Of a stretch of 64,000 nt of DNA, positions 210-18,000 are shown in pieces. The notes below the pieces were generated by a model that saw only the letters and a list, made by a program, of their open reading frames with translations, was not told the DNA's origin and did no database searches. Numbering within the stretch: the stretch's first letter is position 1; every line of letters begins with the position of its first letter. The position numbers and the translations under genes were made by a program. Origin of the DNA: Diplosphaera chodatii (taxonomy: Eukaryota; Chlorophyta; Trebouxiophyceae; Prasiolales; Stichococcaceae); NCBI GenBank assembly GCA_032358165.1, contig JAALGY010000041.1, forward strand, positions 62,001 to 126,000. The letters run 5' to 3'.

Positions 210-3200
210 TCATGCTGTGCCGGGCCGCGGCTGCAGCGGCGCCGCGACGCGTGTGTCCACGATGAGGTGCACTGCTGTTGCAGCCGGGGCCCTGGGGTCC
301 TGGTAGTACGTCTTCAGCGCCACCTCCATCCAGGCGCCGCCCTCCCTGGCATTCAGAAAATTTCATGCTTAGTTCCACATGAACTCTAGCGCCACCTTCA
401 CCCAGGCGCCGCCCTCCCTGGCATTAAAACAGCACATTTCAGGGTGTAGGAAAGCAATTTCAGCGCCACCTCCATCCACAGGGCCACTCCCAGGGGCCAG
501 TCAGTGCCAGCTTGTGTTGGGGCCCTAGCGTCTGAAACGGATTGTGCGTAGCTATGCAGGGCCCCAACCTTCAGGCTGACAGCTGTGGACAGCCGGTTTT
601 CAAGACACCTTGCCGTGTAGTAGGCTGGTTTTGCGCTCCAGAATACAGGCATTAATACTGACACTCATGACCAGCCAGTTGACAGATGGACGCTGCGACA
701 CCAACCTGGTCAGTTCATACGCACCTGGGATTCGGCGTGTCGTTGCGCAGCGCCGCTAGGCAGCCCTGCAGCGCCGCGTGCGCGTCGCCAGCCCCCGGAT
801 CCGACAGGTCCCGCGGCAGCAGGCCGCCGAACAGCCGCCCCTCCGCATCCCACAGCACCAGCGGCGCCTCCGCAGTCGCGTCCGCCACGGTGAGCTGGGC
901 AGCGTACACCCACTGCCCGCCTGCACCATGGCAATCCTCACTCTAAGCTGTTTGCCTACGGACCCATGGACTTGTTTGCACGAGTTTTGGGGCGCTTGCT
1001 AATGGTCCAAGCGCTGGTGATGTGAGCAGGCAGCAGACGGAGGTACAGCAACCGCACGCAGGCACAGCAAATGTAGACGAGGCACATGGCCCTGTCGCAA
1101 GCCAGGCATGATTCCATCGCACGGTGCATAAGATGTTGATCAGGTAGGTTCGCTGTTGTCATGTGTTCCACCTGCGCTGCCGTCCTCCTCGTCTGGCTGG
1201 CACAGCTCCGCGACTGAGCCCGGCTGAACATCGGTGAGCCGCACCAGGCAGCGGCTGCGGGCGACGCGACCGCCGACGGTGTGCGCCAGCACCTGGTTTG
1301 GGGGTGTAGCAGAAAGAGCATCAGGCTGCAGGGCTTGCGAGGCATTGAGTCACGACACACAGCAAAGAATGCAGGCATCAGCTTGGGGGCAGGTGCTGGC
1401 CTGGTCATCAGCACAATTGCAGGTTCTGGTGAGTGTTGTAGCTTCGGGGAACAGAGCGATAGGGCATTGCGGATCTTTCGAGCTTCTCGACCATCGAAGC
1501 GCACCTGGCGCAGGGTGCGGAAGGGCTGCGCGTGGTGCGGGGTGGTGGTGCACCACTCGCCGGGGTTCCCCGGCGCCCACCCTGCAGTGCCACACACAGC
1601 ATGCTCCACCTGGTGCCCCAGAGCGAAAGACAGACGGTCGAACAGTCGTTTGAGGATAGCATGCCTCCTGTGCAGTCTGGACGTACGACAAGGGCAGGCC
1701 AGCGGCTGGCGACAGCCACAGTCACACATGTTGAGCTGGCTTATGGGACAAACCCTGCAAACCGCTGCGCTCCACTCAAGGTGTGTCTTTGTTTCGTTAC
1801 CTGCAACATTGTTGGCGGCACGGCGTCTCGCATCCTCTGCCAGCAGCGCAGTCACATCCTCCCCATTCGCTGGCCACGGCAGCCTGCACCACCAACCAAC
1901 TCTGATGACGGGAGTTGGCATCTGACCACAGCAATGAATATGAATGACAGTCAACCGACAACAATGCACCCAACACAACAAGGTGCATGTCAGCTCTGCA
2001 ATCATTTTGAAGTGAGGTCTCAACAGTGTGCACCAATGGACGCTTAGTACTGACAATGGATTGACTAGTGGATCAACTCACCACTTGGAGGCGGCATGGT
2101 AGGCGGCCTGCAGCTGGCCCCGCGTCGCAAAGGCGCCCACATTCCGCAGCTTCACCCAGTCGCCTGCGCCAGACATCCTCGCACACACTTTGGCGTGTTC
2201 CTAAATCCAAGTGAGTTGAGCAGGCCCACACTATCGTGCAGGGTGTCATATGCGGAAGCTGCACGCATTTGCAAGTGCTGCTGCTGGATGCCATGCACTC
2301 CACCACAGTCCATGGTCACAATGCGGCTTGGTGAAGTACGGTCAATGACAGAAAAGTAGGTGAAATGGGGAGCACAACAACTGCAAGTACGGAAGACGAA
2401 GAGGCGTGCCTGGCTCCGGTAGGCTGCCGCTGCGACGCACGGCGTCCGCTCCCACAAACACCGGCACGAGAGTGCCGAGCGGCGGCATGCCGTCACCCAG
2501 CGCCGCCAGCTCCTACATCACAGAAAAAATACTGCAGCGAATGGTGGGCAAACAATGGCAAACCTACACAAGCGAGGCACCCTTCAGACACCAGGTCATA
2601 CACTAGCTGCAATGCTCTGGCCAGTTGCTGTGATTGCCCTGCCACAGGCAGCGCAGCTCTGACCCCGGATCTACAACAGCTCCAGCCCCTGAATGCAGAT
2701 CGTGCACACCTCTGCGGTCAGCCACCGCTGGATGCGTTCGCCCGGGATCTGCATCGCCTGGGTGGCGCTCGCTGCAGGGCCGCCGTTCTGCATGCCGCCC
2801 GCCCCGGCATGCCCGTTCTGCTGCCCATCTGTGGCCTGCTGCTGCTGCTGTGCACCAGACGGCGGCTGAGCGTCCAGCATGGTGGTCAGCCTGCAGCGGA
2901 GCCAGGCAGGCCTTTCCTGCTCTTGTTGGCAGCGACAGCCAACCTAACTGCTGGCCGGTGCAGTCCGACACAGCAGAGCAGAGCCATGCTTGACATGCAA
3001 GCTCTCAACATCAGTGTATGGATCCTGATGAGGAGTTTCCAGCATTTGAGAAATGCCAGCGGACTCACTCGGGGGCAAGGGGCCTCGCGTCGGTGCCGTC
3101 CCATATGAACATGAGAACGCCGCCTGCCGCACCGCTAGTGTCCTCGCCTCCGCAGCCCTGCTGCTCTGGCTTCACAGGCGACTCCAGCGGCCGCACTGCC

Positions 3201-6200
3201 ACCACCTGTGCATGTCGATGACAGGGGCACCGCTGACATGGTTGGCAGCAGCGTGGACTCATGAATGCAGCAGTCTGCAAAACGATGTTCATGGAACCGC
3301 CGAGCTGCTTGCGACTCAAAGCGCTGCCCTGAGGCAGAACATTAAGTACTGGATCGAGGCTCCTGCAGCACCTGTGGTCCGCTACAGAACATTCTCCACA
3401 GAAGTTGAGTCTACAATGTTGACTTCAAACTCTGATACTGAGCAGGCTCTGAACAGACTGCGCACCCGGCAGATGCAGTCAAAGAACTGGCCGGGGGCCG
3501 CGTCCATGAGCTTCGCCAGATACTTCCGGCGGCCCTCGCCGCGCGGCAGCGACGCCCGATAGCTCCGAATCCTGCAGCGACAGAGCAAACCCCTCACGCA
3601 CCGCATTAAAGGTGTAAATTCCGAAGGATCCCCTGTACGTCGGAGCATCTGTCGTGTGGTGCAACCTGGACCACTGCTGTGATGGCGGCTGCAGCACTTC
3701 AGTGGAGACAGCTACTTTCAGCCCAGCGCACAGGATGCCGTGGGCAGCAGGTCAGGGCGCCTCCCACACGTGGAGCTGCTGCCTCACCAGGCCAGGTAGG
3801 CGCCCTCTGAGTCCTCCTGGAAGGTGTAGGTCCGCCCGGAGTGCGCATATGGCTGCAGCGGCGCCTGCAGTGCAGGGTCCAGAGTGAGAGCCAGGCACCG
3901 GGGCCTTGTGAGTGTCGTTGACTGCTTGCATCAGCCGGTGCAATCTGCGGCAATGACTACAGGGTGATGTTGAGCGGCAATGCCAGAGCCCTGCTGGCAC
4001 CAATGCTTGATGTGCCAAGTGCCAAGTGCAGGCATTGCAATGTGTGAGCAGAAAAACGCAATCTGCGAACCTAGGGGTGCATGTCACGGCCTTCCACCCC
4101 TTACCCATCATTGTACAGGGTGGCAATCATTGTATAGGGTGGCATGCCAATGCAGTTTGCGACAGGGGCCGCACCTGCTGCCTGCCGTCGAAAATGCAGA
4201 AGGCGAGGCCCGACTTGGGGCCCACCTTGCCGCTCAGCTGCGGCTTCCCATTGTAGTACTGGCCCTGCAAACCCAGCAGCAGGGCTCAAGAGAGGCACCA
4301 CAGTTGACCTGGCCGTGCAGGTGCGGTCAGATGAGACCTTAACATTCTGATTAATGGGTGTGAGCAAGCGCGAAGTTCCCATGCGCACAGACTCAGGCGG
4401 AGCATTGTCGGCTGCTGAGCACACCAATCCCACGAACGGTATGCCTGTAGACAAGATGCTACAGAAGCCAAGGGCACCCACCAGCACGCTCACGTCGACA
4501 CGGTGGAGGCGGAGGGATGTCGCCGCCCAAGTGTATGATGTATGTTCTCTGAGTTTACAAAGTCAGAAAGTACCGACACGGTCTGTGTCTATATACACTC
4601 ACGTTGACGCGGTGGAGGCGGATGATGTCGCCGCCGCGGTGCACCTTCGGCAGCGCCGACGGGGCGCCAAACAGGATGAAGTCCACGCCCTCGGCTAGGC
4701 CGGGGGTCTCCTCCGTCGAGGGGTCCCACAGCACGAAGTTCATCACCCAGTCTGCAGCAGCACCGTCAGGGCGTGAATTTACATGTGCAGACTTCACATC
4801 AACAAGGTGGGTACCTCTGCCACTTCAAGGATACCTTTGCCACTTCAGCGATGGTGGAAATGACAGCTTGGCAGCAACGCTTCCAGGCGTAGGTGCCCAT
4901 GTTTCTGGCAGCACCTGTGCCGCGGCTGCGGCGCGGCTGGGTCGCCTCTGTGATGACCGCATACACATGGCACGGCCGCCCACCAAAGTTGCCCACCTGC
5001 AGCAATCGAAGACATGCGTCTGACCTGCTGTTGCATGCTGACACTGTGACAGAAAGAAAGCACCCTTATTCACTTTCTGAGGCCCTCACCAAAAAGCAGG
5101 CTGCCAACTGCAGCATTACTGCTGTGCTGCGTCATACAGAGTGGCTTTTAAAGCAAAGGCCTACTGCATGGACTCGGCACCCAAGGGGCGCAGAGATTGT
5201 GCACCTCGCTGAGCATGGTGTAGGCGTACTGCCCGCCGGTGCGCGGCTCCGGGTTGCGCGGCACCGTCAGCGACCCGTCAGGCAGCTGCTGCACCTGCGG
5301 TGAAGTGGTTTCACTATTTCCCATCAGTACTTCCCTGGTGCTCTTGCTACCTGACACCACCCGCTGCTTGTTGCCTGCTGTACCGCATCAGACGATGTCA
5401 GATCAGCATTATGCCGACAGGCAGCCGCTGTATCTGTGCCGAGTGGAGTCCTTGGTCTCGTGGGGAACGTTGGTCAGCTCACAGTGCATCTCATCACGGT
5501 CCAGTATTGCAGCATGCTCACAGAAAGACGCACAGTGAATCATAGGCAGTGTCCAGCCGCACCTGGGGCGCTCCAGCATGCTGCAGCTGCTGCGGCAGCT
5601 GCACCTGCGCATGGGGCGCTGCGTAGTCCCACTCCGGCTGCTGCTGCTGCGCCCGTTGCTGCTGTGGCGGCGGCGGCGGCTGCGGAGCCACTGGGGCCGC
5701 ACCAGCGGCAGGGCCATGCTGCTGGGTCTGCCGTATCGCAGGTGCCGGCTGCTGCTGTGGCGGCTGGAGTGGTGGCTGCCGCGGCACCGGCGGCTGTCGC
5801 TGCTGTGGCTGCTGCTGCGGCAAAGCTGGTGATGGCTGTTGCTGCTGCGGCTGCTGTGGCAGTGGCTGCTGCGTAGCTGGCAGCTTTGCCTGTGGTGGTG
5901 GCGCCTTCGGCTGCTGCGCCTGCTGCTGTGGCGGCACTAATTGGTGCACCTGCCGCTGCTGCAAGGGCGATGGCTGCCGCTGCGGCTGCGGCTGCGGCTG
6001 CCGGGGCTGCTGCTGCTGCTGTACCTGCTGTGTCTGTCATATTGACACAGTGACCATCAGCAGGATACCAAAAGCAGCGTTTCACCAATGGTTGAAGACA
6101 AAGAGGTTCCCAGACACCACTCCAGTTGGATGCAGCTCGTGCGCCTCAGCGACGGTCGCACCTGCGGGCGGGGCGGCAAGACCAGCGGGCTGTGCACGAG

Positions 6201-9200
6201 GTCAGGTCGCCACAGCAGCGCAGGCAGCAGCGTCAACTTTGGGCCTGCCGCCGGCTGCTCTGTCGCTGGCTGCGCTGCAGGGCCTGCTGCTGGCTGGCCC
6301 GCTGCGCCCTGCACTGCGGGACTTGCCACTGGTTGGCTCGTTGCTCCCTGCACTGCGGCACTTGCCACTGGCTGGTTGGCTGCCCTTTGCAATGGCAGCG
6401 GCGAGACCAGCGAGCTGTGCACATAGTCGGGCCGCTGCAGCGGCGCAGGGAGCTGCGTCAGCGTTGGGCCTGCCGCCGGCTGTTCTTCCGCTGGCTGCAC
6501 TGCAGCACCTGCATGTGGCTGGCTTGCTGGCAATGGCAGCGACAGCACCAGCGAGCTGTGCACATAGTCGGGTTGCTGCAGCACCGCTGGGAGCGGCGTC
6601 AGCTTCGCAGCCGCAGCCGGGTGCGCAGCCGTCTGTTGCCGTGAGGACGGCTGCTGCTGCGTCGGCAATGGCTGCTGTGGCTGCTGCGGCGGCACCTGCT
6701 GCCGCTGTGGCACCTGCTCAGGAGCTCACTTATCAACACTTATCAACACCCAGCTTGAAAGCCTGCCGTAGGCGTTATGCTATGAGATGGTAGTAAGTAA
6801 AAAACTGCAGAAGAGCTGCTCATTGCTTGGTGCACCTGCTGCGATGATACCAGCGTGCTGTGCACGAAGCCGGGCCGCTGCAGATGAGCCGGAAGCGGCG
6901 TCAGCTTTGGCCCCGCGGCTGGTTGCTCTGTTCCTGACTGCACAGCGGCAGCTGGTGCAGGCTGGCTCGCTGCTCCCAGCAACGGCTGCGACAACACCGG
7001 TAGGCTGTGCACGAAATCGGGCCGCTGTAGATGCGCCGGGAGAGGCGTCAGCTTTGGGCCTGCCGCCGGCTGCTCTGCTGCTTCCGGCACTGCCACCCCT
7101 GCTGCTGGCTGGCTTGCTGCTCCCTGCACTGAGCTGACAACTGCCGCCGGCTGGCTTGCTGCTCCCTGCAAAGGCTGTGGCAGAACCAGCGGGCTGTGCA
7201 CGAAGTCGGGCCGCTGCAGCGGCGCCGGGAGCGGCGTCAGCTTTGGGCGCGATGGCTGCTGCGCTGCTTCCTGCGCCCCAGCGCCTGCTACTGGTGACCG
7301 GCCACCTGCTTCCTGCGTCCCAGAACTGGCCGCCGCTTGGCTTGCTGCTTCCTGCAGCGTAGTGCCTGCTGCCGATGGCTGCTGCGCCAGACGCCTCTCA
7401 ACTGCAGCAGCTGCCGGGCCGGGTGCCGCTGCCACAACAAACCCTAAGTCCGGTCTTGCGCGCGCTGCTGCGATTGCAAACAGGCCGCGACTGGCGGGGT
7501 TGACTGCCTGAACAGGCGCAGCAGGCGCATCGGCACTTGGGGTCAGCCCCGCCGCTGTCTCGTCTCCAGGCAGCTGCAGCACTGCGGCGGGCTGCGATGT
7601 ACCAGCCGGATGCAGCCACGGCGCTGGCTGCGTGTGCAAGGACTGCGCGCGGTCGGCAACCTGAGCCCAGCAACATTTAGGGTTTAGGGTTTAACCCAAC
7701 ACGAATGGAAAACTCAGGCATGCGAACCGGCAACCTTCCATGGGCAGGTGCATGCCAGGCTACACAATGGGCATCAAGGCCCCCCACAACGTGCACCCTG
7801 CCAGCAATGTCGGCCACTCCTGCAGGGCCTACACTGCAGCAGGCTGCAGCTGCCGTCACCTGCTGTTTTGTGCGTCGCTTGGCTGCAGGCTCAGGCAGCA
7901 GGGCGGGTGCCAGGCGCCACGTCTGGTGCCGCAGATCCGCACGCGCCGAGGTGCCGTCATCGAACTTGATGGTGTGCAGACTCTGCAATCACGACTGCTC
8001 GTGTTAGCCAGCCATGCACATCCCGCTGGTCGCCCATCTGCAGCAGCTGACTTCAGCATGTGGCAGGTTGGTTGCGGTTGCATCTGCACATATTGTGAGA
8101 TGACCATAGGGGATGCCTTGCGATTTGTTTGATGGCTGTCTTTGACAGGGTGTTTATTCATGTCTGCATGCAGCGGCGTGCTCACTGTCACACCTTGCTG
8201 GCGTCCCAGGCGGTGATGTGCCCGAGGTTGAAGTGCTCTTCGCAAAACAGGCTGATGCGACGCCACAGCAGCTCGGCCCCTTGCAGCCTTGAACCCTCCG
8301 CACAGCCTCCGAACTGAGCTTGCAGTGCTGCTGGTGGTGCAGCTATTGGTCGAGTAGCTGGTGGCAATACAGCTGGTGCGCTGGGCTCCTTGCCGGCAGC
8401 CGGCAGACTAGGATGTGCGGGTGCTGTGCCTGCTGTGTCTGGCGGCGAACTCTGAGCGCCTGCAGTCCTGATGGGCGCTGCTGCTGCCGCTGCTGGTGGC
8501 CCTGTTGCTGCTGTCTGTGGGCATGGTGATACTGCTGGCTGCTGTCCGCTTCGTGCTGCTGATGCTTTAGGTGGTGACCCACCAGCTGGGAACGCAGACT
8601 GCACCTGTGCACTGTCGCGCATGTCATGCGGCCCCTGGGAGGAACCTGAACCCTGAGGTACACCCTGCAGGCGGCCGAGCAGCCCCAAGTTGGGGGGCTG
8701 CGCCTCTGGAACGCTGCCGGCAGGGCCACCCTGCAGCGCCGTGCTCCCCGCAGTTGCTGGCGCTTTGGTGCCTGCAGGCCACAACAAGGCTGGGAGTGTC
8801 CAGCTGGAGCAGATGATGTGATCAGTGTTATGGCGTGAACAACCGACGTGCTTCGTGGCGGCAAAGTAGTACATGAAGCTGTCCCGACAGCCACTATTCT
8901 GCAGTGGTTTGTCGTTGCTTCGGGGTCAAAGCTGCGCAAAATTAGAGCGCAGAGTTGCGGGTCATTGTGAGCATCACCCTGGAGATACGCCTCTGCCCGG
9001 CGGCGGTAGCCCTCGTTTTCGTCGCGGCAACTGCCACACAGCAGGCGCCTGCCGAGAGCGCCGGCCGGCGTCCCGCGGCTGTCAGAAGTGCCGCAAGCAG
9101 AGCACTCCTGCAGGGTGGAGGCCGACAAAGTGTCGTTCAAAGCTCAAAGTGATCGCAATCCACCTTGGTGTCGCTTCAGTGAGAAGCAGACCAGGCCTGC

Positions 9201-12200
9201 TGCCATACTCTGCATTTGTCTGCCTGGACTTGTTGGGCAGGGCGGACAGAAGGTCATCTTAGTACACACACCTCCATGGGACCTGCCAATGCCAGGGAAC
9301 AGCACAAGCATGTCCCAGGCATGGGGCTGCCTTGCAGGTCTGGAGACTGCACACGGCTGGATACTGCACACGGCTGTCTTTTAAATGAACAGCAGCAATG
9401 AACAAGACGGCAGAGAGCCTCCTGAAGCGAATCACCCGTGCAATCGTGGCCGTCCGCAGATTGAATGGCCCCTGCACCGCAGACTGGGCCCTTGGCTGCA
9501 CTGCGGATGCCTCCGGTGTTGCAGCTACAGGCCCTCTTGCTCGACTTGCCGGTTGCAAAACCGCTCCATCTGCTGCGGCTGCTGCACTGCCAGCAGCCAC
9601 TTGCTGACTGGGTGAACCGCTCGCATCACGCTGCAGCTGCTTCGCTGCAGGGTGGATGTTGGCACTCCCGCCCCCGCTGGGCTCCGGTGGCTGCTGCTGC
9701 TTTTCTGCCGCCGCTAACACTGTCGCTGCTATCGCCGCCGTCGCCGAAATTGCTGCTGATGCTGACCCCTCCGCTGTTGACGGTCGTGGCGATACTGCTA
9801 CCAGTGTCGGCGGCAGCACCGCCATCTCACGAGCTGCTGCAGAGAACCTCTCCAGCCCATTTGTCCCACTATCTGCATGTGCGTGGAACACACTCTATCG
9901 GGTGGCGCTCGACCCTTCTTCTTTTGAGTTGTGCAGTGCTTGAATCCTTGTGCAGCGCTTGTATCGTAGCATCAGCACCCTGCTGCCGGTGTGATGCAAT
10001 GTTCTCCTCAACAGGGAGGATAACATGTCGACTACCAAATATTTGGGTTGCTGGCATAGGCCTTTATTGCAGCAGCAGCAGCAGCAGCAGAAAAGCCACC
10101 TGTGAAGTGCAGGAGAGCAGCTGCAGCCTCTGGCCGCAGGCCTTGGGTTGGCATGGTGTGCACCAGGTAGCTGAGTCGGCTGACTGCGGCCTGCAATGAC
10201 CGACATGCCATGCTCAATGACATGCGCAAATGGCAGACACTCCAGCACCAGACTGGAAGGCATGTGGGTGAAACTGGCACAAGGTATGTAGCAGCTACTT
10301 GTCACTCTGGGGGAACAGCAACGCAATGCAGCGACACGGTCCCCGCTGCCCGCAGCACTTGCGCAGCACGAGCCAGGGACTGCAATTCATCCACTGAGGA
10401 AGTTGGGCTTACGTTGAATGCCGCAACTCCCTCGGGCGTCAAGGTGTCGTGGGCAGCGGCTGCCACGGCTTCGCAGGCTGCGGTGACGCCGCTGCCGACA
10501 GCAGTTGCTGCCACGACAAAGTGGGCATAGGTGTCCACAGACCGGCGCAGCCGCTCTTGGCGCGCGCCTACACAGAGCCATAAGCACTGGGGAGTCAGGG
10601 TCCACCATGATGAGGTTTGAAGCTGTCATCTATCTGCATGCGTAGCTCGCATCTGATGTGCATGTGCAGCAACATCAAAGCTGCACGCCCAGCAACAACA
10701 TGGTGTGGCATGGCATGTGCAAAGTCACCCAGGTTTGCAGGCAGTAGATAGCTCACTGCAGGGTTCAGGCTCGCCTGTGTAAACCTTTGCGGCGTGCCGC
10801 GACTCGACCCCACCGCCAGAATGCATGCGCGCCACCAGTTCGCGGCCCTGCATGCCCCCCATATTCTACCCCTCACATCACAAAAGGCTCTTGTGCTGGT
10901 GGTGAGGTGGGATTTGCCGCAAGAAGCAGGAACCAGCACAGCCTTCTGAACCTTGCACACCTCTGCTGTGCAGCTGAGGATGCGCTCGTCGCGAGGCAGC
11001 TCCGGCAGGGGCTGCTGCAGCCACTGCACAGATGCTGCAGGTGCTTCCGGAATGGGCGCATGCGGCTCCGCTGCCACTGGGGCGGGGACGGAATGTGGCG
11101 GCACAGGCGGGGCGTCTGTCACATCCCCCAGCTGCGCCAATTGATTGAGCCCCTGGTCCGGTGCGAGCTGCAGTTGTGCTGCTGCGGCCGCCGTCGCTTG
11201 TACCGCAGCCGCCGGCGCCGAGGGAGGCCTCTGCTGCATCACCAGGGTTGCCACAAATGCCTCCACCTGTCCCAGATCGCACAGCACATCAGCTGCACAT
11301 GCTGATGTGACAATTCTCTAACTTGACGCTTTGACAAGCCAAGCCCTCAATTGCTGTGCTTGCACGCTTCGACACTCGCCAGTTCTGGGACGACCATGGC
11401 TCACAGCATCTAGTGGTACAGTTTGATGTGCAGACGGTCACGCCAGAACTCTGGCAGCTTGCCTGATCCCTGATGAAGCTCTTGCGGGATTCCATGTCCT
11501 CCCCAGTCTCTGCTGACAGCTGCTGCCGGATCATCTTCTCTGTCACCGTCTGCAACATGCACCAACATGAATATATCGACAGGGTTACAGTGCACACAAT
11601 GTGCATGCTGTTGCTATTGGCAGGGACCTCGCATTAGGACCCACCTTCACGTCCACCGTCTTCAGTATCTGGTGTATACGCTGGCCCAGCTCCTCGTCAG
11701 TGAGCGCTTGCGCCCCCTGCTGCGGCTGAGTGCTGGTGACGCCGGAATCAGTGCAGGCTTGCGCATGCTGGGGAGCGTGCGGCTGACTTGCAGTCGGCTC
11801 CGCCATCAGAGTATGCCCTGAAGCAGCCGCTGGCGGCTCGCCGCCTGGGTCCGCTGCATCGGCTGCAGCAGCCTGCACGACCTGGGCAGCAGCTGGGTCG
11901 GCGGCAACGTCTGCTGCCTGTGGCGCCACACCGACTGGCGGCTGTACAACTTCCGCAGCTGCCGGCGATGTGCTGCGTGCAGCCCCTTGCGGAAGTCGTG
12001 CACGAACGACTGTGCCGGGCGCTGGGCCGGGCGCAGCGGCATCATCAAGCCTCCGCCTTTCTCTGCCATCCTCTGCTGTGCAGCTGCAAGAAGGAAGGCG
12101 CTGAGTATTGATCCATGAGCATGGGTTGGGTCAAGCATGCGCAACTCCACAAGTGCATCGTGCAGTGTGGTGCAGTGATATCGTGCTACCTGCGGCAGTG

Positions 12201-13285
12201 GGCTTGCAGGCCGCCCACACTTTTCTGGTCGACAGAAAAGGCGGATGCATCTTGTTCAGCACCGCACTTGCGGCATGCCTCGAACACCTGTTTGCCCATG
12301 TCCCCACCCTGTACACAAGTGGCTTCCATGTGGCAGCACGTGCCACTATGTACATGGTGACGCAGGGCCTTGTCATGCAGGACGCCACAGTGCTCTGGAT
12401 GATGGGCTTGCCTGCGCCTGTGACACAGCAGCTGCCATTGCTGTCGTGGCGGCAACTGGTGGACTGCCTTGCCTTGGGCTCTCCTGTCCGGTAGACATGG
12501 CGCATAAGACGCAGCACACTGTAACCCTATCATTTGGCTTGCAAGCTTTACAGGTGTTGCACAGGGACGGCAGGCTGTGCACGGGTTGCCACATGTCATC
12601 CGACCATGTGCCTGACAAGCACCCCACGCCACCTGCTCAAGCAGCTGCGATGGCTGCATGCTGGCGTCTGGCGGCGTGAGGAAGCCGACGCTGGGCTCGC
12701 TGTCAGAGTCCTGGGTGCCGGGCGGCGGCGTGCGCTGCAGGCCGTCTCCCTGTACCTCTGTCGGGATGAAATCCTGCAGAATTGGACGGCAGATTTAGCA
12801 AATCCACGGAGCAGGACAGCTGATGACGGGGTGATCCCATGCTGCGAGTGTGACAACAAATGTGTCTCCTGCCAATCTGCCGGCAGGCAACCCCAGAACA
12901 CCCTCCATCAGCCTGTCCATACCGCACGCTACTGATGTGTTGAAAGTCCAGCTGTGAAGCCTCACCTGCGAGACCTGAGGGGTCAGCGGCTGCGTGTCGT
13001 CACCCGCTGCCAGCAGCTGCGTCTCGGCGTCCATGTACTGCGTCTCAGCACCCAGCTGCATGCGCACCACTGCCGCTGCCTCCGCCGCTGCTGCCGCTGC
13101 CACCGCCGCCGCCACCTCCGCCGCTGCATCACCCACTTGCTCGGAGGCCACAGCGCTGACCATCGCATTACCGGCGGCAGGACCTGCTGGCTGCATGTCC
13201 CTGCTGGTTGCCGGAAGGTGTGTTTCGGCATCCATGTACTGCGTCTCAGCCTGCAGCTGCATGCGCACGGCAGCCGCTGCCTCGT

Positions 13286-13338
<53 letters not shown>

Positions 13339-14101
13339 GCTGCATCCTCCAGTGGCTCAGTGGCTGCAGCACTGCCTGACGCATCCCCTGCTGCGGGGCC
13401 TGCTGGCTGCATTTCTGTGCGGCCACTGGCAGCGGGCACATCTGCACTGGCAGGATGACCTACAACCTGAGTGCTGAGCGGGATGTCTGGCTGCGAGGGA
13501 GCGGCTGCTGTCATTTTACCCGCTGCACCACCAGATGCTAGTGGAGTCCTTGCTGACACGCAGCGTACTGCCTGGATGTCAGCAGTGACAGCTGGCTGCG
13601 AGGGAACAGCTGCTGGCTGGCCACCGGCTGCGCCATCTGGAACCCACGGTATCCATGTGGACGACGGTTGAGGCGTGGCTGCTGATGTGCTCGCCGTATT
13701 GTCACCTGCTTTGTGCCGCTTGGCAGGATTCTGTGGGTCGGCGGGCTCAGAAGGGCTGCGCCGCCCCAGCATGCTGCCTGCCAGGCGCCTGATGCCTCCA
13801 GCGAGCACGCCGCCTATCGAAGCCCTGCAGGCGTTTCCGCTACAGGTTGCGTGGCAGCATCAAGTGAAAGCAGATGTGCGAGGTCCTGTAGCGCTGCTAG
13901 TCCTGACCTCGATACATGCTTCAGTCCTCAAAATTGCATGCCCGAAACTTTCATATGGGGGTTTGAATGTATCCAGCACCTGCTTGGCGTTGGAGAAGAG
14001 GAACGAGGGCCTCCATCAGCTGCATTAGATGCCGCAGGCAGATCGCCAACCGCCTGCCGCCGCCGTCGCCGCTGCAGCTGCTGCTGCTGCTGGCCTTCCA
14101 T
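210..14101 (-). CDS. POT1: POT1-like telomere-binding protein with a giant DEK_C / GATA-finger / Tudor / repeat N-terminal extension
   Basis: About 31 exons, roughly 2,400 residues. Exons from high to low: 14101-13980, 13824-12966, 12773-12633, 12224-12190, 12083-11645, 11549-11463, 11266-10961, 10774-10729, 10567-10338, 10190-10100, 9872-9436, 9107-8978, 8771-8194, 7982-7797, 7660-6836, 6713-6162, 6027-5563, 5294-5205, 4996-4915, 4751-4603, 4264-4175, 3921-3788, 3571-3466, 3205-3069, 2890-2710, 2512-2410, 2163-2082, 1581-1505, 1292-1172, 920-725, 345-210. All junctions keep phase except 2082/1581, where a small exon may be missing. OB1 (4175-5294) carries SRGTDWVMNFVLWDPS, GDIIRLHRVN and YYNGKPQ; OB2 (2082-3205) carries MFIWDGT and GDWVKLRNV; a third OB-like region spans 210-920. 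POT1 proteins bind the single-stranded G-rich telomere end. The POT1 identity is strong. The N-terminal fusion is inferred from phase continuity. Start chosen at MEGQQQQQ; the 5' end is uncertain. Confidence 0.72.
315..480 (-). repeat. Direct repeats around the acceptor of the last POT1-like exon
   Basis: The last exon's start and acceptor (315-353) recur as a near copy at 387-425 and partly at 461-480, both inside the upstream intron. The full copy keeps the acceptor (gccag|ggaggg) and most of the EGGAW coding sequence. It could act as an alternative acceptor or a cryptic exon. Confidence 0.8.
5563..6027 (-). other. Gln/Pro-rich exon immediately before POT1 OB1
   Basis: An exon of 155 codons, mostly Q and P with tracts such as QVQQQQQPRQPQPQPQRQ, ends at GCCCCAG|gtgcgg. 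It joins in phase 0 to the 5294-5205 exon, which carries GGQYAYTMLSE at the edge of OB1. It contains no Met, so translation cannot start here. It is probably a disordered linker between the peptide-repeat region and the DNA-binding folds. Confidence 0.7.
6181..7246 (-). repeat. Six-copy peptide repeat, core KLTPLPAxLQRPDxVHSxLV, in the POT1-like gene
   Basis: The minus-strand reading frame carries six related cores at about 7184-7246, 6993-7056, 6847-6910, 6546-6608, 6405-6468 and 6181-6242. Examples are LTPLPAPLQRPDFVHSPLV, LTPLPAHLQRPGFVHSTLV, LTQLPAPLQRPDYVHSSLV and LTLLPALLWRPDLVHSPLV. Copies are separated by low-complexity Ala/Gln/Pro linkers such as QGAASQPAA. Copies 1-3 are in exon 7660-6836 and copies 4-6 in exon 6713-6162, so the array spans an intron. 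The conserved R-P-D-(F/Y)-V-H-S centre within a disordered background looks like an array of short binding motifs. I recognise no named family. Confidence 0.8.
7676..7692 (+). repeat. Interstitial telomeric repeat (TTTAGGG), two and a half units
   Basis: TTTAGGGTTTAGGGTTT lies in the intron between exons 7982-7797 and 7660-6836 of the POT1-like gene. On the coding strand it reads AAACCCTAAACCCTAAA, which contains the plant telo-box core AAACCCTAA. If this intron is retained, the Tudor exon frame runs into it and stops at a TAA at 7677-7679. Confidence 0.95.
7797..8265 (-). other. Tudor-like domain split over two exons of the POT1-like gene
   Basis: The end of exon 8771-8194 encodes LLWRRISLFCEEHFNLGHIT and AWDASK. 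Exon 7982-7797 continues SLHTIKFDDGTSARADL and ends the fold with a Trp-Arg-Leu strand. The order R-R-I-x-(L/V), a GHIT-type strand, then H-T-(I/V)-x-F-D-D-G and a closing Trp is the pattern of plant Tudor modules in PWWP and PDS5-like proteins, which read methylated histone tails. Aromatic cage residues cannot be judged without a structural alignment. Assignment is by pattern only. Confidence 0.5.
8978..9107 (-). other. GATA-type zinc-finger exon of the POT1-like gene
   Basis: The exon begins ECSACGTSDSRGTP and ends its metal site with LLCGSC, giving Cys-X2-Cys-X18-Cys-X2-Cys. That is the spacing of plant GATA fingers, including the internal T-P and the G-x-L-G turn. The usual Trp after T-P is absent, replaced by Ala-Gly, so it may be a degenerate finger or a related four-Cys fold. 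The exon ends in phase 1 (CTCCAG|gtgatg) and joins 8771-8194 in frame. Confidence 0.55.
11258..11710 (-). other. DEK_C domain-coding exons of the POT1-like gene
   Basis: Three exons (end of 12083-11645, all of 11549-11463, start of 11266-10961) join into LTDEELGQRIHQILKTVDVK, then TVTEKMIRQQLSAETG, then ESRKSFIRDQ and VEAFVATLV. This is the DEK C-terminal pattern: an acidic start, the T-V-T-x-K-x-(I/V)-R-x-x-L core, then x-S-R-K-x-F-I-R. DEK_C domains are small helical folds that bind DNA or chromatin. The join between RDQ and VEAF only works with a GC donor (CAG|GCAAGC), because a GT donor further on would insert unrelated residues. The domain sits near residues 510-575 of the chain. The domain call is strong; its membership in the same transcript as POT1 is inferred. 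Confidence 0.75.
13288..13336 (-). repeat. Coding GCT/AGC microsatellite (poly-Ala)
   Basis: About 16 tandem GCT triplets on the plus strand lie inside exon 13824-12966 of the POT1-like gene and are read as poly-Ala on the minus strand. The surrounding exon repeats the block MQPAGPAAG ... ETQYMDAET twice, so the tract sits in an internally duplicated acidic/Ala region. A shorter GCA run lies at 10069-10090 in an intron. Confidence 0.9.
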
Positions 14102-15034
14102 GCGAGCGATCTGCAGGTTGCGCCAATGCTACATTGCAGCCAGCTTGCAGCAGGTACCAGCCTCCTGCTTGCTGAGGCTTGCAGTGATGCCCGGTGATCT
14201 AAGCAGGTGTTCAAAACCTTGCGTGTTTGGCACCACTTGAAACACCCTGCGCCGAAGGCTGTTTGGCAACCTTCGATGGCGGTTACAAAGCAGGGTTTAT
14301 GCAGCTGCACCAGCGTGTGGCTGCTCTCCCACTTGGTTGTTACACATGGGCTGCAGCTCCTGCACTTTTAACCCTCAACCTTGGGCACGCTGCAAAATGA
14401 TGCACTACCGCGCTGAGGTACCACAAAAGCCATTCACACTCGCTGACGCACTTCATCCGCTGTTGTGGAGTGTCACAACTGCACCATTTAGCACAGCACG
14501 CGCAGCAGCTCCGAGACCCTCCCAACCCCTGGCGCAACCGAATCGAGAGTAGTGTCTACATTTGCGGGGTGTCAACAGGGTCGCAGATAAACCGCAGATA
14601 ACCGAGACCGTCCTCTGACATGCTGTGCCAAAGCGTCACAGAGGCACAGCAGCGAATTTGCGCACTGCTCAAAGCAGCTACAACATATCAGGATCTTGGA
14701 ACGGTGTCCGCGGCGGCGCGGTGCGCGACCGCTGCGCTGCAGGACAGCATCCCCTGTCATCACACCCGGGTTGGTGCGGTACTGTCGCACGCCTTGCCGC
14801 ATCTCACTCATGCCGCCTGCCAGAAAGCTTTTGCTTTGAGATCTCTCCGATCAACGCAGTCTAGCTTGCTCATTGGCAAGGGATCAATGTCGCTCTGTGT
14901 CATGAGCCCGTCATAGGTGCAGGACCGCGTTTTCTCAGGCTGTGCCACCTGCGCTGGCTGAAGCGTTGAGAAGGGCCTCTACATATCTGTCTGTAACCGC
15001 AGATCAGTGGCGCTAGCAGCTCCATCACGGCGAC
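14102..15034. promoter_or_regulatory. Divergent intergenic region between the POT1-like gene and the repeat-protein gene
   Basis: The two starts (14101 minus, 15035 plus) face away from each other across about 930 bp, so this must hold both promoters and 5' UTRs. I see no clear TATA box. Unidentified 5' exons of either gene may lie here; for example the plus-strand helical ORF starting at 14620 (MLCQSVTEAQQRICALLKAA) has a usable frame but no supporting homology. Confidence 0.4.
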
Positions 15035-18000
15035 ATGGCCAACAAGGACGGTGGTGCGCGCCGTGGCGACCCTGGTGACAACGGCTGCAGCCGCGCAGCA
15101 AAGGTGCTCATCTTATGATGATGGATACATCTTGACGGCAGGTGTGGCGTGATTTGGTAAAGTCCTGTTGCGCTGCGGCGTGTGCTGGCATGCTGCAAAC
15201 GGTTCCTGCCGCAGCTGCACAGGTGCCACCGGTGGTGCATGCATGCATCTGCAGAGCAGTACCAGCAACGCGATTGCTACCCATAGCGGCTTCACGATCA
15301 TGTCGAACTGCATCCCGTCAGTCCTAGTTGCTGGCCAAAAGTTCACACCGCAGAAAGGCATCGCACCTTGTGGACTTGCTCACAAGCACACACACATCGA
15401 TGATCCCACCCTGCATCACTGCCTGTGCCGCAAATCCGTCACATGAAAACAGCACGTACTACAAACATGGTTGTTGCAAGACGTCTTGTGCCCCTTGCTG
15501 CTGCGCAGATGCTGTCCGCAACGGAGGAGGAGGCTCCACTCCGTGCGAAGTGGCTGCGGCACCTTCAGGAGGCAGATGCCCTGTACCAGCAAGGATGCAG
15601 CAGCAAGGTGCTCGCCACCATGGCACCTGTGCACAAGCAGCAGATGTATCATGACAGGAAGGACAAGGCCGATCGAGAACCACGTTCACCAGCAGATGAA
15701 GAGTTCTTCAAGGTGGGCGACTTCTATCCTGCAAGCTCGAGGGTCGGTCAGGCAAGCTCTGAGCAATGTTGAACGGTGAACACGAGCATGCTCACGCTAG
15801 CAGCAGCCTGCATGGCAATACAGCAGTCATCGAACGCAGCAGATACTACTTGCGCTCGCCAGGTGGCTGCGTGCACCTAATGCTACTGATCGGGCATGCA
15901 CATGAGCATACACATAACACTACTGCTGCATATATGTGATGTTATGATGGTACATAGATGCTGCATCTGTGGCGGACTCCTGCAAGCAAGCTCAGGGTCT
16001 GGAGGCACAGCTACTGCTGACGCATTAAACAGCACTTATGCCACCTGACCATACATACATACACAAGCAATGCCAACAATTGCTCTCGCTGACTTTGGTG
16101 AGCTGTATGCCATGCAGTTGTTCTCTGAGGTCTTGGACGCCGCATGGAGCATCAGCCGCTATTACCACATCCATACACATGACAGATTGGTTACCCACTC
16201 GGATGTGAAAGAGGTGGAGAGGGCCGCGATGCTGTGCGCAATTCAAGCATTGAACCTGTCACATTCTGATGTACACTGTATCAGCCACGTGTCTGCACAA
16301 GCAACCTGGATATTTCTGCCAGTAACAGCATGTAGCAGTAACCACATGCCATCATTGTCAGGGGTTCGAAGTCTGGAGGAACAGCCGTCTAGCATCCGGC
16401 TGTTTGCTTGCTGCAGGTACCGATCTGTCCTGAAGGCTCTCAACGGGACGTGGGAGGCTGAGTCGCTCTACGCTGCCATGACCAATCGGGTGGTTCCTGG
16501 AGCGTACCCCGCAATCGCTGCAGCGGTTGCTGAGGCGGCTGCGTCCACTCCTGATGACGGCACGGGCACCAGCGAGGCACAGGTGCTTGTCTCATGCATT
16601 TGCCAAAACCATAGTGCTGCTTCTGGCTGTTGAACCTGGTGAAGGGTCTCCTGGCAGATGGTTACAGTAGTCATGTAACCGCTGTAGGTGCTGCAATGCC
16701 ACATATGTCAGTCTGTAAACACAGGCTTTAGGCATGTCCTGGCTACAGCCTAGGCCATGTCCAAGCTGCAAACGATGCATTCCCGCAACTAGTGACCCAC
16801 ATCGTATAATTTCATTTGCCGGAGTGCACAGGGCAGGGACAGCAGGCACGTAGCTCGATGGGCGCCTCGTGCAGATTTACCCATTGCTGCCTAACGGCAT
16901 GCCCATCGCAGCAGTGACATGCTCGGTCAACATGGCACCTTTTCTGCGCAGGAGCCTGCCGCAGCAGCTCCAAAGTCCCCAGATTGCAATGAGTGGCTGC
17001 AGCGCCTTCAGGAGGCAATGGCCCTGTACCGCAAAGGCGACCGCGATGGCATGCTGGCTGTGGTGGCTCCGCTGCACAAGCAGATGGAGCTCGATGGCGA
17101 ACTGGACGAGGATCAACAGGGCCAGCCGCAGGACAAGCTGATCATGGAGGTGAGTGCACTGCCAAGACCAGTTAGCAGAAGGCAGTTGTTGCACTGGTCA
17201 AGAGCACCCTCTGTATCCATAGGACAACATAGTGTATCAGCACAAGGACGGAGCTCACTAATCTAAATGTGCAAAGGGACGGCAAACTGCTGGCAGCATG
17301 CAATAGCCTGTGCGTCTTTCAGATGCTTCAGTGCAGTGCAGGGCCAACCTTGGTCTCTGCAGCTGCATCTGGTATTCCTGTACTGCCAGGGTTGCAGGGG
17401 ACATGCTTGAGGCAATAGCAGCGTATGAACCTTCAACCGAGCTGATGAACAGTCGGTGCTGTTTCCGTCATGCAGTTTTTCGCTCCACTGCTGACGACGG
17501 CGTGGACATACAGTCAGCAGTACACCAGCAGCTGCACAGACCGCCTCGGCAATGCGGAGCTGGGCGTCTGCAACCTGCGCGTGGCTGCACTCATGTGAGT
17601 GTACAAAATGGCTTTGCCCTGCACTCTGCAACACAGTATAGGAGACAGGGGAGTGAATCGGCTCTGATGAGTGTTCTGCCAAGAGGCACTGCTTGTGTGG
17701 CATTGTCCAGAGTGTCCATTTGCGCAAGCAGCAACAGTTGGACTGTGTTCATACACCACTGCACATCCTTCAGATACAGCAAGTGATCTGTTATCAAAGA
17801 CCCAGCTCATATGTGTACTGAACCCCTCGAGTATTCTGAGCTGCAGATACTACCATACCCAGAAGAGTATCGAAGCCTGGCAGGCTGAGCGAAAGTCTGC
17901 CAGAGTGGTGGATTTTGGGCGGGTCGCAAGCTACCTGGATGGTGCTGAGGCGGCACTCGCAGCAATGTTTGCGGCTGCAGCCACGGTGCCGTCACCGCCG

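Follow-up and report, generated by a model that had tools for sequence, protein, structure and literature searches.

POT1 proteins of known architecture

To our knowledge, little is known about the protection of telomere ends in green algae. One study describes CTC1 as not readily identified in several species of the genera Chlamydomonas, Micromonas and Chlorella (PMC3400083). A long N-terminal extension ahead of OB1 is described for Pot1 of Ustilago maydis, where an extra N-terminal OB fold sits in an extension of ~350 aa before OB1 and is thought to serve protein contacts (PMC9119445). The locus of Diplosphaera chodatii discussed here would share such an extension, with the difference that the one in U. 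maydis is another OB fold, while the one in Diplosphaera would comprise 1847 residues with a DEK_C domain, zinc fingers and a Tudor-like module. In the POT1 literature searched (titles and abstract openings, with partial coverage), none of the entries names a fusion of POT1 with DEK_C or Tudor.

Three algal POT1 proteins (P0001 and P0002 from the Trebouxiophyceae Apatococcus fuscideae and Myrmecia bisecta, and P0003; lengths, in ascending order, 506, 511 and 880 aa) have the same order of OB folds as the Diplosphaera POT1 part, with the POT1 and OB_POT1A families present in 3/3, and align with it at 34-36% identity. Unlike the Diplosphaera protein, they start just before OB1 and lack N-terminal modules; the long addition found in M. 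bisecta P0002 is C-terminal, not N-terminal. No long POT1 relative (about 1330-4230 aa) is found among 7995 scored candidates. This result and the lack of N-terminal modules in the three proteins argue against a fusion. A search of a plasmid collection, an ill-suited target, gave 0 matches.

Exon chain and POT1 part

The window, that is the whole stretch of 64,000 nucleotides analysed here, corresponds to positions 62,001-126,000 of the forward strand of D. chodatii contig JAALGY010000041.1; positions are given in window coordinates, and all features lie on the minus strand. An exon chain of 32 exons and 2416 codons runs through 210..14101, with the stop codon at 212-210 and 0 internal stops. 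The exon model was refined by comparison with a second copy of the locus on another contig, C52. The first exon (13980..14101) carries the start codon at 14101-14099, the ATG and its flanks being aligned and kept in C52, and a small exon (10775..10847) with a GC donor in both copies was recognised through the same comparison. All 31 introns have regular borders (28 GT-AG and 3 GC-AG), so that the phase-matched joins proposed from OB1 up to the N-terminal exons are recovered as one open chain. Matching phases had also been considered as strong evidence of a fusion; this was rejected, since 18 of the 31 introns are in phase 0 anyway and the match alone is weak. The chain probably represents a single gene encoding a protein of 2416 residues with POT1 at its C-terminus, divided into an upstream part of 1847 residues, largely of low complexity, and a POT1 part of 569 residues.

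The 3' end of the chain is a real POT1. It occupies 15 exons (210..5294) and contains OB1 (PF02765, 3.7e-17, 62.9 bits, cut-off 29) and the C-terminal OB of plant-type POT1 (PF25507, 5.3e-8, 33.1 bits, cut-off 27), both above cut-off, which bears out the original identification. The second OB (POT1PC) stays under its cut-off of 27.2 in the final model (0.0026, 18.1 bits) as well as in the C52 copy (19.9 bits); of the earlier window models, one gave 19.9 bits and another did not list it at E<=0.05. The region aligns over its full length with the three algal POT1 proteins. Sequence matches of the POT1 part in the PDB, obtained with an early gene model, are POT1 and ciliate TEBP-alpha. When the OB1-OB2 part was searched against its own genome, 10/10 matches at E<=1 fell in the window locus and the C52 locus; a six-frame search of the genome with PF02765 gave 0 matches, and control genomes were equally silent.

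The second copy and the junction before OB1

The second, diverged copy (C52:87156-74990) has the same exon order, comprising 29 exons and 2047 aa with 0 internal stops and 28/28 introns of the GT-AG or GC-AG type. Here an uninterrupted exon of 1064 nt (81921-80858) holds the preceding module and the repeats together, and because this single exon spans both sides, it answers, for that copy, the doubt about the join at 7.7 kb. Since the two copies share a common ancestry, they are not independent proofs. The copy nevertheless supports a fusion, as it keeps exon order, frame and splice sites and shows coding constraint to either side of the junction with POT1.

The junction is formed by a Gln/Pro-rich exon directly before POT1 (5563..6024), the stretch 5295..5562, which would be an intron if the chain is fused or intergenic if it is not, and the OB1 exon. 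Each copy retains the donor of the Gln/Pro-rich exon (CAG|GT) as well as the acceptor of the OB1 exon. The Gln/Pro-rich exon is under purifying selection relative to C52 (w = 0.37), its lengths of 462 bases in the window and 495 in C52 differ by a multiple of three, and 5/6 codon differences in the OB1 exon are synonymous. Conservation drops at the donor (bins 0.90 to 0.77, with 3 gap columns) and climbs again past the acceptor (0.80 to 0.90, 0.93 and 0.97). The splice scores of the junction are within the range of 56 other sites, with donor quantiles of 0.80/0.66 and acceptor quantiles of 0.16/0.20, as calculated on an earlier exon model in which the splices of window exon 26/27 and C52 exon 23/24 have since been revised; the OB1 acceptor is rather weak. 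We infer from these sequences that the junction would be spliced and that a protein would be produced from the fused chain.

Counting against a fusion, the stretch 5562-5295 ranks first in conservation among the 27 introns with an alignment (0.736 matches per column, the next being 0.731 and 0.705), and within it the 30-base bin 5442-5413 reaches 0.87, which promoter sequence or a short terminal exon might account for as well. Few changes are available for its codons, with w 1.0 for those from ATG 5324 (n=10) and w 0.39 for 5354-5295 (n=20); these w values, that of the Gln/Pro-rich exon and the intron conservation come from earlier exon models, the junction exons being identical in all models. 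A TGTAA poly(A) mark is found in the junction of neither copy, but it is equally missing in about 1 kb past either POT1 stop.

Alternative readings of the locus

On balance we favour a fusion, which we hold to be probable, over two adjacent genes, a possible but unlikely arrangement of an upstream chromatin-type gene and an ordinary POT1 of 579 aa beginning at an in-frame ATG (5322..5324), 10 codons ahead of the OB1 exon. The upstream gene would then end by read-through (stop 5520-5518) or in a short terminal exon, and the POT1 promoter would lie nearby or within the last exon of that gene. Such an arrangement agrees with the presence of this ATG and of an in-frame stop upstream of it at 5390, with another in-frame ATG in C52 (80006), with the start of the POT1 of 3/3 relatives at the level of OB1 and with a length that is ordinary for POT1. 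A short terminal exon would be consistent with a conserved AG at 5428, which is followed in both copies by a short tail (RLPVGIMLI/QLPVGTMMI, each ending in a stop) inside bin 5442-5413, where conservation of the stretch peaks; the acceptor scores of this exon, however, are at quantile 0.0/0.07. On read-through, the tails are dissimilar and frame-shifted between the copies and the stop is not kept. No more than 193 bases lie between stop 5518 and ATG 5324. The start codon itself differs between the copies, the place aligned with ATG 5324 being GTG in C52 and ATG 80006 being AAG in the window. In the same earlier exon model that was used for the splice scores, in-frame ATGs precede 11/31 internal exons in the window and 16/28 in C52, the junction exon being counted in each. 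ATG 5324 was consequently rejected as strong evidence for two genes and proves little either way. It does overturn the argument that translation cannot begin just before OB1, although the exons 7660-6836, 6713-6162 and 6024-5563 are indeed free of Met (0/275, 0/184 and 0/154 residues), the last of them starting at 6024 and not at 6027. One long protein ending in POT1 stays the best-supported reading, through the second copy rather than through the lack of a usable start.

Both kinds of product could also arise together, if an internal promoter yielded a short POT1 transcript next to the long fused one, giving fused and plain POT1. This would accommodate the features of the fusion as well as those of the two-gene arrangement, and the top rank of the stretch 5562-5295 among the alignable introns fits it; with no positive sign of an internal promoter and no start codon position common to the two copies, it is quite improbable. 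A single bicistronic mRNA whose two reading frames are translated separately has a precedent, as green algae, among them Trebouxiophyceae, have nuclear bicistronic mRNAs in which the ORFs are separated by short spacers, and the mechanism proposed for them is leaky scanning past ORF 1 (PMC11291117). In the Diplosphaera chain, 19 Met codons, the start codon counted, would lie in frame within ORF 1 ahead of OB1, which makes leaky scanning implausible, and this reading is given very little probability.

Modules of the front part and their possible role

It is reasonably likely that a complete POT1 and a front of DEK_C, zinc-finger and Tudor type are united in one polypeptide that combines end-binding with chromatin-binding, both copies being fused and the second being without the Tudor-like module. 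Judging by the domains, the most likely mechanism is that the OB folds of POT1 would bind the G-strand overhang of the telomere and that the front part, with DEK_C and zinc finger and in the window copy also the Tudor-like module, would hold neighbouring duplex DNA or chromatin, with the linker rich in Gln, Pro and Ala supplying the reach. A single chain would in this way do the bridging that is done elsewhere by separate shelterin proteins, and contact between overhang and chromatin would become possible within one protein.

The individual modules are of unequal standing. The DEK_C assignment (11463..11698, two main exons and a few residues in a third) is firm, with PF08766 at 1e-15 and 57.8 bits in the joined protein (cut-off 24.8) and at 1.7e-17 in C52, in agreement with the original prediction. 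Compared with DEK C-terminal domain proteins, the window protein is alike in this well-scoring domain and unlike in that its residues 1-1234 have DEK_C as their sole Pfam family and no second DEK domain at E<=0.05. A zinc-finger exon (12190..12287) has the pattern CX2C...CX2C, the second pair being finished by the following exon; its C52 partner is 60% identical, it has 77 matches in the genome at E<=1, 8 of them at E<=0.001 (its own counted), and 0 Pfam families exceed their cut-off. The exon once read as a GATA finger (8978..9107) is better called zinc-finger-like: its motif is CX2C-X18-CX2C, with the cysteine pairs kept in C52 at a spacing of 17 residues, and the GATA family gives no match in the window protein at E<=1 or in the C52 copy at E<=5, in searches where HMMER filters drop most weak matches.

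For the Tudor-like module (7797..8300, two exons at about 8300-8194 and within 7982-7797), which is absent from C52, the earlier assignment holds in part. Taken alone, the module is below the cut-off of every Tudor family, with LBR_tudor at E 0.23. Its likeness to the PTM/DIR17-type Tudor (PF21743) comes through a related place on contig C19 of the same genome (E 0.0015), which itself matches PTM_DIR17_Tudor at 4.4e-8, over the cut-off. A further place on C41 is 46% identical to the module (8e-8); the C41 and C25 relatives give 0 Tudor family matches at E<=5. For the front part as a whole, a query rich in Ala and Gln, no relatives are found among 8000 scored candidates in the protein database. 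The repeat modules recognised earlier are confirmed by count, as a 21-residue repeat occurs six times in two exons (6162..7660), three times in each, and four times in the C52 copy.

An exon chain and its second copy

The genome (85.6 Mb, 55 contigs; the window being C35:62001-126000) was searched with individual parts of an exon chain that had been assembled by hand and was then refined through comparison with a second copy. The chain runs on the minus strand from 14101 to 210, with 32 exons encoding 2416 residues, no internal stops, and 28 GT-AG and 3 GC-AG introns. Its last 15 exons (5294 to 210, minus strand, 569 residues) form the POT1 part, for which profile searches of the translation returned PF02765 (3.7e-17) and PF25507 (5.3e-8), with POT1PC at 0.0026 falling under the cut-off. 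An early gene model of this part matched the PDB sequences of human POT1 and ciliate TEBP-alpha, and identity to three POT1 proteins is 34-36%, two of them from members of the class Trebouxiophyceae. On this basis the genome is taken to be green-alga-like. Part of the beginning of the last exon occurs a second time within the last intron, at 388-424, and duplicate and exon both match one place on contig C52. At the other end, the roughly 1 kb lying 5' of the start codon (14102-15083) forms part of a larger block, 15083-12631, that aligns with C52 at 75%; this 1 kb may be either promoter/5' UTR or an unrecognised exon.

Single-module searches led to C52, where the locus order is identical, POT1 included; all 10 matches of an OB1-OB2 search at E<=1 lie inside these two loci. 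The C52 copy has 29 exons, 2047 residues, no internal stops, and 25 GT-AG plus 3 GC-AG introns; of 2021 residues aligned with the window chain, 1529 are identical. Between the copies the gene has diverged by about 0.3-0.7 at synonymous sites, so exons can be distinguished from most introns. The contigs are colinear in the three flanking stretches tested, with 73-76% identity in longer pieces. This colinearity (C35:52001-107000 with C52:61779-117437) would fit an old large-scale duplication or two diverged subgenomes of a hybrid.

Modules of the front part

The DEK_C domain and the repeats of the original prediction were both recovered, the former firmly in both copies, the latter as six units in the window and four in C52. 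The predicted GATA finger was not: the second zinc-finger motif (CX2C-X18-CX2C in the window, X17 in C52) has no GATA match. The first zinc finger (exon 4) has numerous potential relatives, with 77 genome matches at E<=1, eight of these at E<=0.001 (the window's own included). Many of the 77, similar CX2C...CX2C motifs that are each a weak match, cluster at C33:163-277 kb and C13:2989-3054 kb and may belong to a large gene family that has no name.

Relatives of the Tudor-like module lie on C41, C25 and C19, with one more, weak match on C47. The C19 relative is a PTM_DIR17-type Tudor; the C41 and C25 relatives gave no Pfam family at E<=5. The module is missing from the C52 copy. The intron 3' of the Tudor-like exon carries two telomere-type repeats (CCCTAAACCCTAAA; 7676-7689, minus strand), and this intron has no counterpart in C52.

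In C52 the module 3' of the second zinc finger and the repeats lie on one unbroken exon, 81921-80858, with no counterpart of the Tudor-like exons between them, so this module and the repeats share one reading frame. The Q-rich exon (6024-5563) codes for protein in both copies (w, the coding-constraint ratio between them, 0.37); its lengths differ by 33 bases, and an in-frame gap of 21 takes up most of the 30-base bin 5652-5623.

One gene or two

The Q-rich exon ends in CAG|GT in both copies; past this donor, gaps in the alignment shift the frame, and the two read-through tails do not resemble each other. The acceptor at the OB1 exon is also present in both, and five of six codon differences over the 30 codons of that exon are synonymous, so that coding constraint is plain from the OB1 acceptor onward. 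Scored against 56 other splice sites, the donor lies at quantiles 0.80 and 0.66 in the two copies and the acceptor at 0.16 and 0.20. Among the further AGs that the copies have in common in the stretch 5562-5295, 5428, in the best conserved bin (0.87) and with a similar short tail, scores at quantiles 0.0 and 0.07, while 5375 ranks higher, at 0.61 and 0.30, but is followed by dissimilar tails. On balance a single fused gene, front part plus POT1, is the more probable reading, though not a secure one; the common ancestry of the two copies speaks against it.

Two adjacent genes, with 5562-5295 intergenic, are distinctly less likely. The three exons before OB1 do lack methionine, as predicted (none among 275, 184 and 154 residues), but the claim that no start exists just before OB1 was wrong. 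An ATG at 5324-5322 lies in frame ten codons 5' of the OB1 exon, stop-free between (upstream in-frame stop at 5390), and could thus start a plain, 579-residue POT1. In all three POT1 proteins that were recovered the sequence begins just ahead of OB1, which counts against fusion. The counterpart of this ATG in C52 is GTG, and w is 1.0 over the ten codons to the acceptor and 0.39 over 20 codons of the same stretch, with too few changes to decide. For 11 of the window's 31 internal exons and 16 of the 28 in C52 (the OB1 exon counted each time), an in-frame ATG with no intervening stop lies within 300 bases upstream, and ATG 5324 is thus at chance level. Also counting against fusion, the stretch 5562-5295 is the most conserved of 27 alignable introns, by a narrow lead (0.736 vs 0.731 and 0.705). 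That the locus yields both fused protein and plain POT1 is improbable, and a bicistronic mRNA more improbable still.

If true, the fusion would be a new variant of POT1, with a function predicted from domain knowledge only. Against it, none of 7995 scored proteins of about 1330-4230 aa was found to contain POT1, though that database yielded just three relatives of ordinary length. The nearest precedent found for a long N-terminal part is the POT1 with four OB folds of basidiomycetes and metazoans (PMC9119445).

Adjoining the 3' side of POT1 on C35 (L001:7679-9226, minus strand) is one open frame of 515 codons. We take this gene to be permease-like; in C52 its partner is broken up, with 115-292 bases between the pieces, and it looks as if the C35 copy has shed its introns wholesale.
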